From Actinomycetospora chiangmaiensis DSM 45062 (GTDB lineage Bacteria > Actinomycetota > Actinomycetes > Mycobacteriales > Pseudonocardiaceae), in NCBI RefSeq assembly GCF_000379625.1, contig NZ_KB903243.1:248105-312104 (forward strand): a stretch of DNA of 64,000 nt. The letters are read 5' to 3'. The notes beneath the pieces were generated by a model. The model did no database searches, had not been told where the DNA came from, and worked only from the letters and a program-made list of their open reading frames with translations. The position numbers and the translations under genes were made by a program. Below are positions 19,084 to 22,357 of the stretch, piece by piece. How positions within the stretch are numbered: the stretch's first letter is position 1; each line of letters opens with the position of its first letter.

Positions 19084-19601
19084 AGCTCGAGCAGGCGGAA
19101 GGCATGACGCTCTGGCGGCGCCTGTACGGCGCGAACCCGCTGCACCTGCTCGCCGTGATCGGCTGCTTCGCGCTGTCGGGCTACGTGGTGTCGATGCTGT
19201 GGGACGACCCCACGTGGCCGGCGCTGCTGATCTGGTTCGTCGGCGCGGTGATCGGCCACGACCTGATCCTCTACCCGCTCTACGCGCTGGCCGACCAGCC
19301 GACGGTCCTCGCGCGCTGGGCGCGGCGGCGGTACGTGCGGGACCGGCCGGTGCTCGTGCCGGCGATCAACCACCTGCGGGCGCCGGTGCTCGGCTCGGCC
19401 GTCCTCGGTCTGATCTACCTGCCGACGATCACGCGCCACGGTGAGGACGCGTTCCGGTTCACCGCCGGTCTGGACATGGCCGGCATCTACCGGCACTGGC
19501 TGCTGATCACCGCCGGGCTCTTCCTGGGCAGCGCCGTGATCTACGCGATCCGGCTGGGCCGGGCCGCCCGACGGACGACCCGGCCCACGGATCAGGCCTG
19601 A
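19080..19601 (+). CDS. Small membrane protein coupled to the Moco oxidoreductase
   Basis: 173 aa with four predicted helices (about residues 20-38, 47-68, 103-118 and 138-158) and a basic C-terminal tail. The ATG overlaps the TGA of the oxidoreductase gene (ATGA), so the two are translationally coupled and probably form one complex. No family recognised with certainty; the His/Asp in GAVIGHDLILYPLY lies in a helix and could be functional. Its end overlaps the convergent sfnG gene by 10 nt. Confidence 0.75.
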   Translation: MKLEQAEGMTLWRRLYGANPLHLLAVIGCFALSGYVVSMLWDDPTWPALLIWFVGAVIGHDLILYPLYALADQPTVLARWARRRYVRDRPVLVPAINHLRAPVLGSAVLGLIYLPTITRHGEDAFRFTAGLDMAGIYRHWLLITAGLFLGSAVIYAIRLGRAARRTTRPTDQA

Positions 19602-20713
19602 GCGGCGAGCGGGCGCTCGGCCAGCTCGGCCTCCTTCTCGCGGATGATCGGCAGGACCTTCTGCCCGAACAGCTCGATCTCCTCCTTGACGTGGAGGAAG
19701 CAGAGCAGGTTCAGGTCCACGCCGAGCTTCTTGTACTCGATGATCCGGTCGGCGACCTGCTCGGCGGTGCCGATGAGCTGGGTCTTGAACCCGTCGTTGT
19801 ACTGGACGAGGTCCTCGAACGACGACTCCGCCCACATGCCCTTGCCGTCGGAGGCCGACCTGCCGGCCTGCTGGACGGCCTGGCGGAAGCCCTCGACCTG
19901 CTCGACGTTCGCCTTGTCGACGATCTCGCGCAGGGTGTCGCGGGCCTCCTTCTCGGTGTCCCGGACGATCATGAAGCCGTTGAGCCCGAAGCCGACCGAG
20001 CGGCCCGCGTCGGCGGCCGAGGCGTTGACGTCGTTCAGCTGCTCGACGACGCCGTCGAAGTCCTTGCCGTTGGAGAAGTACCAGTCCGACACCCGGCCGG
20101 CCATCGCGCGGGCGGCGCTGGAGTTCCCGCCCTGGAAGATCTCCGGGTGCGGGCGCTCGGGGGTGTTGAGCGGCTTCGGCTTCAGCGAGTAGTCGTGGAA
20201 GCGGTAGAAGTCGCCCTTGAACTCGAAGTTGTCCTGCTCCCAGATGCCGGCGAGGCAGGCGATGAACTCCTCGGTGCGGCGGTAGCGCTCGTCGTGCTCG
20301 AGCCACGGCTCGCCGAAGGCGGTGAACTCGCCCTTGAACCAGCCGGAGACGACGTTGGTGGCGAACCGGCCGTTCGTCAGGTGGTCGGCGGTGGCGCCGA
20401 AGTTGGCGAACACGCCGGGGTGCCACATGCCGGGGTGCACGGCGGCCATGACCTTGAGCCGCTCGGTGGCCATCATCAGCGCGAGCGACAGCGAGGTCGA
20501 CTCGTGCTGGTACTCGGCGGAGTAGCTGGCCATGTACCGGACCTGGGAGAGCGCGTACTCGAAGCCGTTGTTCTCGGCCGCGATCGCGGTCTCGCGGTTG
20601 TAGTCCCAGTTCCAGTCGGTGCGCTGCTCGATACCGCTGGTGACGAGGCCCCCGGAGACGTTGGGGACCCAGTAGGCGAACTTCAGGGGGGCGGTCGGGG
20701 TGCCGACGGACAC
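19592..20713 (-). CDS. sfnG: FMNH2-dependent dimethylsulfone monooxygenase
   Basis: 373 aa luciferase-like TIM-barrel monooxygenase that cleaves dimethylsulfone to methanesulfinate in sulfur scavenging. KFAYWVPNVSGGLVTS at the start, GRFATNVVSGWFKGEF (about 110-125), the PEIFQGGNSSAAR segment near 195 and the FLHVKEEIELFG end match SfnG rather than general alkanesulfonate enzymes. It requires a flavin reductase that is not in the window. The GTG start follows GAGGAGG by 6 nt. That ribosome-binding site is perfectly complementary to a segment of a leader peptide 75 nt upstream, so translation is probably controlled by cysteine supply. Confidence 0.9.
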   Translation of the reverse strand: MSVGTPTAPLKFAYWVPNVSGGLVTSGIEQRTDWNWDYNRETAIAAENNGFEYALSQVRYMASYSAEYQHESTSLSLALMMATERLKVMAAVHPGMWHPGVFANFGATADHLTNGRFATNVVSGWFKGEFTAFGEPWLEHDERYRRTEEFIACLAGIWEQDNFEFKGDFYRFHDYSLKPKPLNTPERPHPEIFQGGNSSAARAMAGRVSDWYFSNGKDFDGVVEQLNDVNASAADAGRSVGFGLNGFMIVRDTEKEARDTLREIVDKANVEQVEGFRQAVQQAGRSASDGKGMWAESSFEDLVQYNDGFKTQLIGTAEQVADRIIEYKKLGVDLNLLCFLHVKEEIELFGQKVLPIIREKEAELAERPLAAQA

Positions 20714-20717
20714 GGAT

Positions 20718-20727
20718 GGCCTCCTCG
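20718..20727 (-). promoter_or_regulatory. sfnG ribosome-binding site, complementary to leader
   Basis: CGAGGAGGCC on the minus strand contains the Shine-Dalgarno of sfnG. It is a perfect 10-nt complement of GGCCTCCTCG inside the leader peptide ORF (20803-20812), so it can be hidden in a long-range stem. Confidence 0.6.
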
Positions 20728-20779
20728 AGGCGTACGGGAATGCCCGGAAACAGCGGGCGAGGAAGGGGCGCGGACCGGA

Positions 20780-20860
20780 TCAGGCGCGACACGCCTGGGC
20801 CGCGAGGAGGCCGTAGTCGACGTGGCGACGCCGCGTCAGTGGCACTCCAGCGTTACCCAT
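20780..20860 (-). CDS. Cysteine-containing leader peptide upstream of sfnG
   Basis: 26 aa short ORF ending RRRHVDYGLLAAQACRA. The RRHVD motif followed by a Cys near the C-terminus is the hallmark of a family of putative leader peptides found ahead of sulfur-metabolism genes in actinobacteria. The ATG at 20860 lies 8 nt after AACGGT with a perfect TTGACA 17 nt further up, so it is probably translated leaderlessly. Codons Gly17 to Ala20 carry the anti-Shine-Dalgarno segment; Cys24 (20789-20791) lies in the loop of a hairpin formed by the last codons. A ribosome waiting for Cys-tRNA would cover most of the anti-Shine-Dalgarno and free sfnG translation. Confidence 0.75.
   Translation of the reverse strand: MGNAGVPLTRRRHVDYGLLAAQACRA
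20781..20797 (-). promoter_or_regulatory. Hairpin over the leader's Cys codon
   Basis: CAGGCG-TGTCG-CGCCTG, a perfect 6-bp stem whose loop holds the only Cys codon of the leader peptide and whose end overlaps the stop codon. It may slow the ribosome or act as a mutually exclusive structure with the anti-Shine-Dalgarno pairing. Confidence 0.5.
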
Positions 20861-20868
20861 CGGACACA

Positions 20869-20897
20869 ACCGTTGCGGCCGTTCGTCCCACTGTCAA
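20869..20897 (-). promoter_or_regulatory. Promoter of the sfnG leader
   Basis: Minus-strand TTGACA at 20892-20897 and AACGGT at 20869-20874, separated by exactly 17 nt. The predicted start of transcription coincides with the leader ATG at 20860. Confidence 0.6.
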
Positions 20898-20920
20898 CCG
20901 GACGCCGACCGGCTCACACC

Positions 20921-22357
20921 TCAGCTGCCCAGGGCCGCACGAATCGGACCGACGGCGAAGTACGCGACGAAGGCGAGGGCCACGACCCACATGAGCGGGT
21001 GCAGCGTGCGGGCCCGGCCGGTCGCGGCGTGCAGCACCACCCAGCTGATGAACCCGACGCCGATGCCGTTGGCGATGGAGTAGGTGAACGGCATGACGAC
21101 GATCGTGAGGAAGACCGGGAGCGCGACCCGGAACTCGTCCCACTCGATGTCGCGGACCCCGCCCATCATCAGCGCACCCACGACGACGAGGGCCGGCGCG
21201 GCCGCCTCGACCGGCACCACCTCGTAGAGCGGGGTGAAGAACATGGCGGCCAGGAACAGCACGCCGGTGACGACGTTGGCGAGACCCGTCCGGGCACCGC
21301 TCGCGATCCCGGACGCCGACTCGACGAAGACGGTGTTCGAGCTCGACGACGCGGCGCCACCGGCCACGGCCCCCGCACCCTCGACGACGAGGGCGCGCCC
21401 GATGTTCGGCAGCTGCCCCTTCTCGTCGAGCAGGTCCGCCTGCCGGCCGAGGCCGGTCATCGTGCCCATCGCGTCGAAGAAGTTGGCGAGCACCAGCGTG
21501 AACACGAGCAGGGTGACCGCGATGACCGGGAGCCGGGTGAAGGCGCCGAGGGAGACGTCGCCGACCAGCGAGAGGTCGGGGAGGCCCACCACCGACGACG
21601 GGAGGCCCGGGTAGCCCAGGTTCCAGCCCTTGGGGTTGGTGCCGTTGGACGGGCCGACGTGCACGATCGCCTCGACGACGATCGCGAGGACCGTCGTGGC
21701 GACGACCCCGATGAGGATCCCCGCCTTCGTGCCGCGGGCGACCAGCACCGCCGTCAGGAGCAGGCCCACGCAGAACACGGCGGTCGGCCAGCTCGCGATG
21801 GATCCCTCGATGCCGAGGCCGACCGGGACCGTCGTGTTGGCGGCGTCGGGGATGCGGCGGACGAACCCGGCGTCGACGAGACCGATGAGCGCGATGAACG
21901 CGCCGATACCGGCCGCGATGGCGATCTTGAGGGCGTCGGGGATCGCGGCGAAGACCGCCGTGCGGAACCCCGTCAGCCCGAGGATCACGATGATGACGCC
22001 CTCGATGACGACGAGGCCCATCGCCTCGGGCCACGTCATCTGCGGGGCGATCGTCACCGCGACGAGCGTGTTAATGCCGAGCCCCGTCGCCAGCGCGAAC
22101 GGGAAGTTCGCGACGAGCCCGAAGAGGATCGTCATGACCCCGGCGACCAGGGCGGTGACCGCCGCGACCTGCGGCACGGACAGCGTCGCGCCCAGCACGT
22201 CGCGCTTCGCGCTCGGTGCGGCCGGGTCGAGACTGCCGAGGATCAGCGGGTTGAGGACCACGATGTAGGCCATCGTCACGAAGGTGACGAGACCACCACG
22301 GACCTCGGCCCCGACCGAGGATCGGCGCTCACGCAGGTGGAAGAGTCGCTCGAGCAC
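20921..22357 (-). CDS. NCS2-family purine permease (AzgA-like)
   Basis: 478 aa membrane symporter of the nucleobase:cation symporter-2 type, AzgA branch (guanine/hypoxanthine/adenine). Residues 18-30 GGLVTFVTMAYIV and the following NPLILGS are diagnostic for this branch; about 13-14 helices follow, with the substrate segment around GIGAFIALIGLVDAG and EGAGAVAGGAASSSSNT. The usual start GTG (22366) would lie inside a TAGGGT -10 box, so the GTG at 22357, seven nt after that box and giving VLERLFHLRERRS, is chosen as a leaderless start. Divergent from the DUF2530 gene. Confidence 0.85.
   Translation of the reverse strand: MLERLFHLRERRSSVGAEVRGGLVTFVTMAYIVVLNPLILGSLDPAAPSAKRDVLGATLSVPQVAAVTALVAGVMTILFGLVANFPFALATGLGINTLVAVTIAPQMTWPEAMGLVVIEGVIIVILGLTGFRTAVFAAIPDALKIAIAAGIGAFIALIGLVDAGFVRRIPDAANTTVPVGLGIEGSIASWPTAVFCVGLLLTAVLVARGTKAGILIGVVATTVLAIVVEAIVHVGPSNGTNPKGWNLGYPGLPSSVVGLPDLSLVGDVSLGAFTRLPVIAVTLLVFTLVLANFFDAMGTMTGLGRQADLLDEKGQLPNIGRALVVEGAGAVAGGAASSSSNTVFVESASGIASGARTGLANVVTGVLFLAAMFFTPLYEVVPVEAAAPALVVVGALMMGGVRDIEWDEFRVALPVFLTIVVMPFTYSIANGIGVGFISWVVLHAATGRARTLHPLMWVVALAFVAYFAVGPIRAALGS

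Follow-up and report, generated by a model that had tools for sequence, protein, structure and literature searches.

A conserved leader peptide with an invariant UGU cysteine codon upstream of sfnG in Actinomycetospora: a probable cysteine-sensing attenuator acting mainly on translation

Ribosomes stalled at the polycysteine open reading frames (ORFs) of mycobacteria are said, with Canestrari et al. 2020 as the source, to free a masked ribosome-binding site. According to the available passages of a review (PMC9031893), leaderless ORFs with contiguous Cys codons could regulate downstream translation in M. smegmatis through attenuation, the speed of elongation being dependent on cysteine, and Cys-dependent leaderless leader ORFs regulating downstream translation in mycobacteria are also treated in the available part of PMC9094748 (see PMC4633059). 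Actinobacterial leader ORFs with Cys codons and without obvious terminators were described upstream of cys genes by Seliverstov et al. 2005 (PMC1262725). The leader table for S. lividans in the available part of PMC8079986 contains no cysteine leader among its entries, and the available part of PMC13236596 has no bearing on the sfnG leader question. Among protein families, the NCBIfam entry NF042934 (cis_reg_atten, 'putative leader peptide') comprises short ORFs in which a Cys stands eight residues beyond an RRxVD-type motif, and one member above the cut-off (L284) is followed by a protein starting MPVPPGSDPLRFAYW, which looks like SfnG.

The locus described here is located in a stretch of 64,000 nucleotides from Actinomycetospora chiangmaiensis DSM 45062 (the window), where a leader ORF of this kind is placed 66 nt upstream of sfnG. 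The relevant features, by position in the window, are:

19592..20713, minus strand: sfnG, dimethylsulfone monooxygenase, start GTG (TIGR04021, 599.8 bits versus a cut-off of 382.95)
20718..20727, minus strand: sfnG ribosome-binding site CGAGGAGGCC, of which CGAGGAGG is invariant at 17/17 genus loci
20758..20765, minus strand: second anti-Shine-Dalgarno (anti-SD) segment CTTCCTCG in the spacer, modelled to pair with the SD when a ribosome is on Cys24
20780..20860, minus strand: leader peptide ORF of 26 codons plus TGA, MGNAGVPLTRRRHVDYGLLAAQACRA, read from the sequence
20781..20797, minus strand: 6-bp hairpin CAGGCG-TGTCG-CGCCTG, whose loop holds the Cys codon
20789..20791, minus strand: Cys24 codon TGT, the sole Cys codon of the window leader
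20791..20796, minus strand: a second segment of the leader, AGGCGT, whose complement lies at 20733-20728, immediately upstream of the SD
20803..20812, minus strand: anti-SD GGCCTCCTCG, leader codons 17-20, exact reverse complement of CGAGGAGGCC
20816..20830, minus strand: RRHVD motif, codons 11-15, exactly eight codons ahead of the Cys codon, read from the sequence
20869..20874, minus strand: -10-like AACGGT, matching weakly, with 8 nt between it and the leader ATG
20892..20897, minus strand: -35 element TTGACA, with a 17-nt spacer to AACGGT

Like the mycobacterial polycysteine short ORFs, the window leader carries its Cys codon in a probably leaderless ORF upstream of a sulfur gene. In contrast to their contiguous Cys run, it has one Cys codon, and its target is sfnG; the leaders of Seliverstov et al. 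2005 likewise represent Cys codon runs, with no sfnG case and the mechanism left open in the passages available. As far as these passages show, the class of mechanism is known, and the additions are the sfnG target and the single Cys codon. An earlier reading of this DNA from its sequence alone had considered the mechanism new, which does not agree with the similar Cys-dependent leaderless regulation reported for mycobacteria in the available parts of PMC9031893 and PMC9094748. Compared with NF042934, the window leader lacks the R-V pair after the motif and scores 15.3 bits (E 0.012; 13.5 bits in the scan of its own genome), below the curated cut-off of 27 bits. It shares the RRxVD-type motif, the Cys eight residues later and the position upstream of a sulfur gene, and is, given its score, best named a diverged positional ortholog of the NF042934 'putative leader peptide'.

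The sequence-only reading had correctly recognized, on the minus strand, the 26-codon ORF with RRHVD and one Cys codon. The letters and spacing of the exact TTGACA-17-AACGGT promoter it proposed are likewise present, and TTGACA is found 36-38 nt ahead of the leader start codon at 17/17 genus loci, but the -10 element is weak and a consensus promoter scan detected no promoter. The conserved spacing suggests a transcription start at or next to the leader ATG, and the proposed Cys-codon leader ORF of sfnG is supported as conserved and probably leaderless. No intrinsic terminator was detected between leader and sfnG in the window, and terminator-like spacers occurred at 0/17 genus loci and 1/67 elsewhere; a classical transcription attenuator was rejected, since no hairpin followed by a U run precedes sfnG. 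An Rfam element was likewise discarded, as positions 20500-21100 yielded no match at gathering score, with lin-4 (17.5 bits versus 40) as the one sub-threshold hit.

Overall, 18 Actinomycetospora genomes were searched, and the leader precedes sfnG in all 17 that bear this gene. An RRHVD-type leader was found at 35 of 59 other sfnG loci of the same family, the remaining 24 having none within 400 nt, and at 67 of 68 further sfnG loci. The latter represent the best 80 of 583 confirmed loci minus 12 Actinomycetospora records, i.e., 67 Streptomyces loci and one Pseudonocardia record, with L184 devoid of a leader and L142 of an assigned start. Leader ORF and promoter both go beyond what chance would give. 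NF042934 was detected above its cut-off in 45/60 genomes of the class versus 0/14 controls, so the leader family is common in actinomycetes, yet its annotation says only 'putative'. Within the genome of A. chiangmaiensis, the RRHVD pattern has 47 matches, and about six of the 46 outside the sfnG leader resemble leaders with Cys. Eight of the ten genes downstream of leader-like ORFs in this genome belong to sulfur metabolism or scavenging kinds (APS kinase, nitrite/sulfite reductase domains, rhodanese and five luciferase-like monooxygenases); the other two encode an NMT1-like binding protein and an acyl-CoA dehydrogenase-type domain.

The Cys of RRHVD-X8-Cys is encoded by TGT in 119/119 sfnG leaders, counted irrespective of kinship (17/17 genus, 35/35 family and 67/67 further loci, the last from the best 80 of 583). 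Elsewhere downstream of the motif, Cys in the sfnG leaders is encoded by 61 TGC versus 23 TGT, and the sfnG reading frames checked contain 35 TGC versus 0 TGT. Circularity was avoided by a search of 60 class genomes, including that of A. chiangmaiensis, with the NF042934 profile, which sees only the peptide: 100 loci among the matches listed, again irrespective of kinship, comprise 95 TGT, 2 TGC and 3 without Cys at this position. These loci consist of 30 first-read, 60 further over-cut-off and ten own-genome loci (six of them below the cut-off), leaving out at least two over-cut-off matches; 14 of the 100 failed the first peptide pattern and were checked separately (11 TGT, 3 without Cys), and the codon table covers 86 leaders from 42 genomes and 25 family labels. 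A Cys seven residues before the fixed one is encoded by 36 TGC versus 2 TGT in the profile-set leaders, and the genes downstream of these leaders contain 90 TGC versus 10 TGT. Since Arg and Asp of the RRHVD-type motif vary among synonymous codons across the 86 leaders and the Cys codon is nearly always TGT, the motif is conserved at the level of the peptide and the Cys at that of the codon. A nucleotide motif 'UGUC', suspected from the sfnG set, failed when more leaders were considered, as A or T can also begin the codon after TGT. An invariant UGU in these leaders was not recognized in any paper listed by searches of an open-access library (most subscription journals being outside this scope), where the string RRHVD is confined to two unrelated articles; the fixed UGU codon looks new.

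The leader is best explained, with a probability of about 0.6, as a cysteine-sensing leader-peptide attenuator of sfnG that acts mainly on translation. Transcription would begin at or beside the leader ATG, and a ribosome would translate the leader from the 5' end of the mRNA. With ample Cys-tRNA, this ribosome would pass the single Cys codon and leave, whereupon leader and spacer RNA would fold over the ribosome-binding site of sfnG. When cysteine is short, it would wait at UGU and cover the 3' part of the leader, rendering the SD of sfnG more accessible, and the sulfone monooxygenase would be made mainly under sulfur need. Of these steps, stalling, cysteine response and SD release are inferences. 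If true, sulfone scavenging would share its mode of post-transcriptional control with cysteine biosynthesis.

By computation, leader, spacing and UGU are conserved, and the leaders match their own SD better than by chance across the family. Across the family, there is modest statistical support for a leader RNA that hides the SD of the gene behind it as long as no ribosome is waiting at the Cys codon. Upon full folding of 42 representative loci, which has to be read with the unreliability of fold predictions for very GC-rich RNA in mind, mean SD accessibility was lower with the own leader (0.149) than with foreign ones (0.195; P = 0.002), and in masking its SD the leader of the window ranked first of 42. 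Among 100 sets of synonymous recodings of these leaders, 1 gave an accessibility this low, and 9 of 100 recodings of the window leader alone masked its SD equally well. Matching of leader and SD was borderline across 19 sfnG clusters (P = 0.047). A downstream start was assignable for 72 of the 86 profile-search leaders, and 67, preceding many gene types, were left after removal of near-duplicates. Their Cys-codon segment pairs better with the own SD than with the SDs of other loci (duplex P = 0.001; run length P = 0.02; control with reversed SD P = 0.56), weakening to P = 0.026 upon removal of the three strongest loci. SD-leader pairing peaks -5 to +5 nt around the first base of the Cys codon (own 0.24, foreign 0.12). 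Co-adaptation of leader and SD in the genus (overall P = 0.003; within clades P = 0.13) exists only between two sub-clades. The swap, recoding and permutation tests across the family are in favour of the general form of the SD-masking leader originally proposed. The specific anti-SD on which that proposal was built is not supported as an evolved, conserved element.

This anti-SD, the 10-nt complement between 20812-20803 and 20727-20718, is perfect in the window, and the naked predicted fold displays the claimed pairing, the SD being fully paired with codons 17-20. At the genus level, it is perfect at only 3/17 loci. Nor does it exceed chance: when the peptide is held constant and codons are drawn at random from local usage, a complement of this length appears in 20% of recodings, CTC being the most frequent Leu codon of four window genes in which codons were counted. 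The site reads CTCCTCG at 5/17 genus loci and CTGCTCG, AAGCTCG, CTCCGTG, CGTCTCG or CTGTGCT at the others. In the genus alignment, 72.9% of anti-SD:SD cells are paired versus 35-56% when slid, and none of the ten pairs changed on both sides. The sequence-only reading had itself named lack of conservation or covariation among relatives as the outcome that speaks against it; without compensatory change across the genus and with a within-clade permutation P = 0.13, codons 17-20 were therefore abandoned as an evolved conserved element. The Cys-codon hairpin is present in the window as described, but intact at only 2/17 genus loci, and was rejected as a conserved element. The core AGGC:GCCT of the second leader segment displays no variation at the 8/8 loci of the window's sub-clade.

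The waiting ribosome was modelled with a footprint of 14 nt on either side of the first P-site base and, as control, a ribosome twelve codons upstream. It covers 6/10 anti-SD bases, near the approximately seven that had been claimed. In this model, a ribosome waiting at Cys24 hardly frees the window SD: accessibility rose only from 0.00 to 0.07, because the SD is then taken up by the spacer anti-SD CTTCCTCG (20765-20758; pairing probability 0.55). Gains of more than 0.1 over the control were obtained at 6/17 genus, 3/21 family and 8/16 Streptomyces-set loci, and the reverse effect, with the control freeing the SD more, at 0/17, 4/21 and 0/16, respectively. The gain was 0.1 or less at 11/17 genus loci, and the 21 family representatives had no net gain (3 up, 4 down).

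These results bear on the possibility that the window anti-SD arose by chance from its Leu codons and the richness of the SD in G, with the leader acting by simple translational coupling or being decayed. The frequency of the complement among recodings, its perfect form at 3/17 loci and the SD left masked by the modelled ribosome agree with such an origin, which we nevertheless consider unlikely: leader, promoter element and UGU codon are kept at 17/17 loci, and none of the 42 leaders ranks above that of the window in masking its SD.

The exact pairing partner of the SD differs between lineages. SD masking by the leader would be clearest in Streptomyces, where the leader codons GCC TCC TGT TGC contain CTCCTGTTGC, which holds the Cys codon and is the reverse complement of GCAACAGGAG at the sfnG SD. 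Paired stretches of 10 nt or longer that include the Cys codon are present at 28/66 loci of the Streptomyces set (from the best 80 of 583), and at another 15/66 the best pairing lies one codon upstream in a different register. Where the leader reads TGT CG (L144, L180), the SD is CGACAGGAG, a compensatory change; with TGT TGC in L182 and L194, the SD GCGACAGGAG forms a G-U pair; L146, L196, L203 and L209 (TGT CGC) keep GCAACAGGAG, resulting in a mismatch. Two genomes of the window's order possess poly-Cys leaders (L210, L212) which share the motif of the window leader and TGT at the same place, and their SD is GCAACAGGAG, as in many Streptomyces sfnG genes.

Further RNA structures were noted among the loci. 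A conserved GC-rich spacer hairpin, suspected by eye, is not put forward, as it was not recovered in the RNAalifold consensus and the fold z-scores of the spacers give no uniform picture (+0.45 for the window, -1.24 on average across 46 loci). The LTRRRHVD codons (leader codons 8-15; window 20838-20818) form a predicted hairpin in the consensus of 17/17 genus loci, of the type TGACG-C-GCC-NNN-GGC-A-CGTCG, in which one C-G pair is replaced by G-C in 3 loci via two synonymous Arg third bases. Two alternative anti-SDs occur upstream of sfnG at L101, L105 and L109: TCCTGTCGCG, a leader stretch spanning the Cys codon, matches CGCGACAGGA at the SD, and in the naked predicted fold the SD pairs with the spacer, by inspection with CTCCT just after the leader stop.

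Pairing accounts only in part for the conservation of UGU. At 19/66 Streptomyces-set loci (from the best 80 of 583), the best register places neither A nor G opposite the third base of UGU; the retention of UGU there points to decoding rather than pairing. The preferred, though unproven, explanation of the fixed UGU is that this codon is decoded slowly by wobble and that the peptide within the exit tunnel contributes. Tentatively, the exit-tunnel motif and a mandatory slow UGU, instead of the preferred UGC, may constitute a single-codon cysteine sensor, the same codon being able to join the SD-pairing leader RNA as in CTCCTGTTGC/GCAACAGGAG of Streptomyces. A fixed UGU at a fixed distance from a peptide motif provides a sharp, testable hypothesis for single-codon cysteine reporting, as well as a simple signature for locating sulfur-limitation genes.

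A more peptide-centred mechanism would have the RRHVD-type motif, 9-13 residues behind the Cys in the exit tunnel, slow UGU decoding such that one codon suffices and SD masking is secondary. R(-13) and D(-9) are present in 86/86 leaders and R(-6) in 85/86, at fixed spacing and across 25 family labels. The codons of R(-13) (CGC 26, CGG 32, CGT 10, CGA 15, AGG 3) vary freely among synonyms, which places the constraint on the peptide, and the Cys codon stands out as codon-fixed among the positions tabulated. The peptide conservation is, however, inflated by selection of the leaders by a peptide profile and then a peptide pattern, and R(-6) and V(-5) are mostly replaced in Actinomycetospora (YGLLAAQAC, HGKLATTLC); nascent-chain stalling as the main mechanism is considered quite unlikely. 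Very unlikely is attenuation by Rho, in which transcription past the leader would end wherever the RNA is untranslated and neither a stalled ribosome nor coupled translation shields it: a weak guess published for mycobacterial cys leaders (in the available passages of PMC1262725), spacers pyrimidine-rich by eye and their mean fold z-score of -1.24 speak for it, but the genus spacers (55-82 nt) are short for Rho and poorly conserved, and the match of leaders to their own SD would be left unexplained.

Beyond sfnG, contig C30 of the A. chiangmaiensis genome harbours a sulfur island at about 146-202 kb with approximately ten leader-like ORFs (L081-L087, L240, L242, L244-L249), which stand before luciferase-like monooxygenases, APS kinase, an NMT1-like binding protein and a sulfite reductase-type gene. 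Three leader-like ORFs (L244, L294, L247) are devoid of the Cys; two of them stop exactly at the expected Cys codon (..CSAT*, ..CSAI*) and one has Ser instead, possibly representing decayed or differently used leaders.
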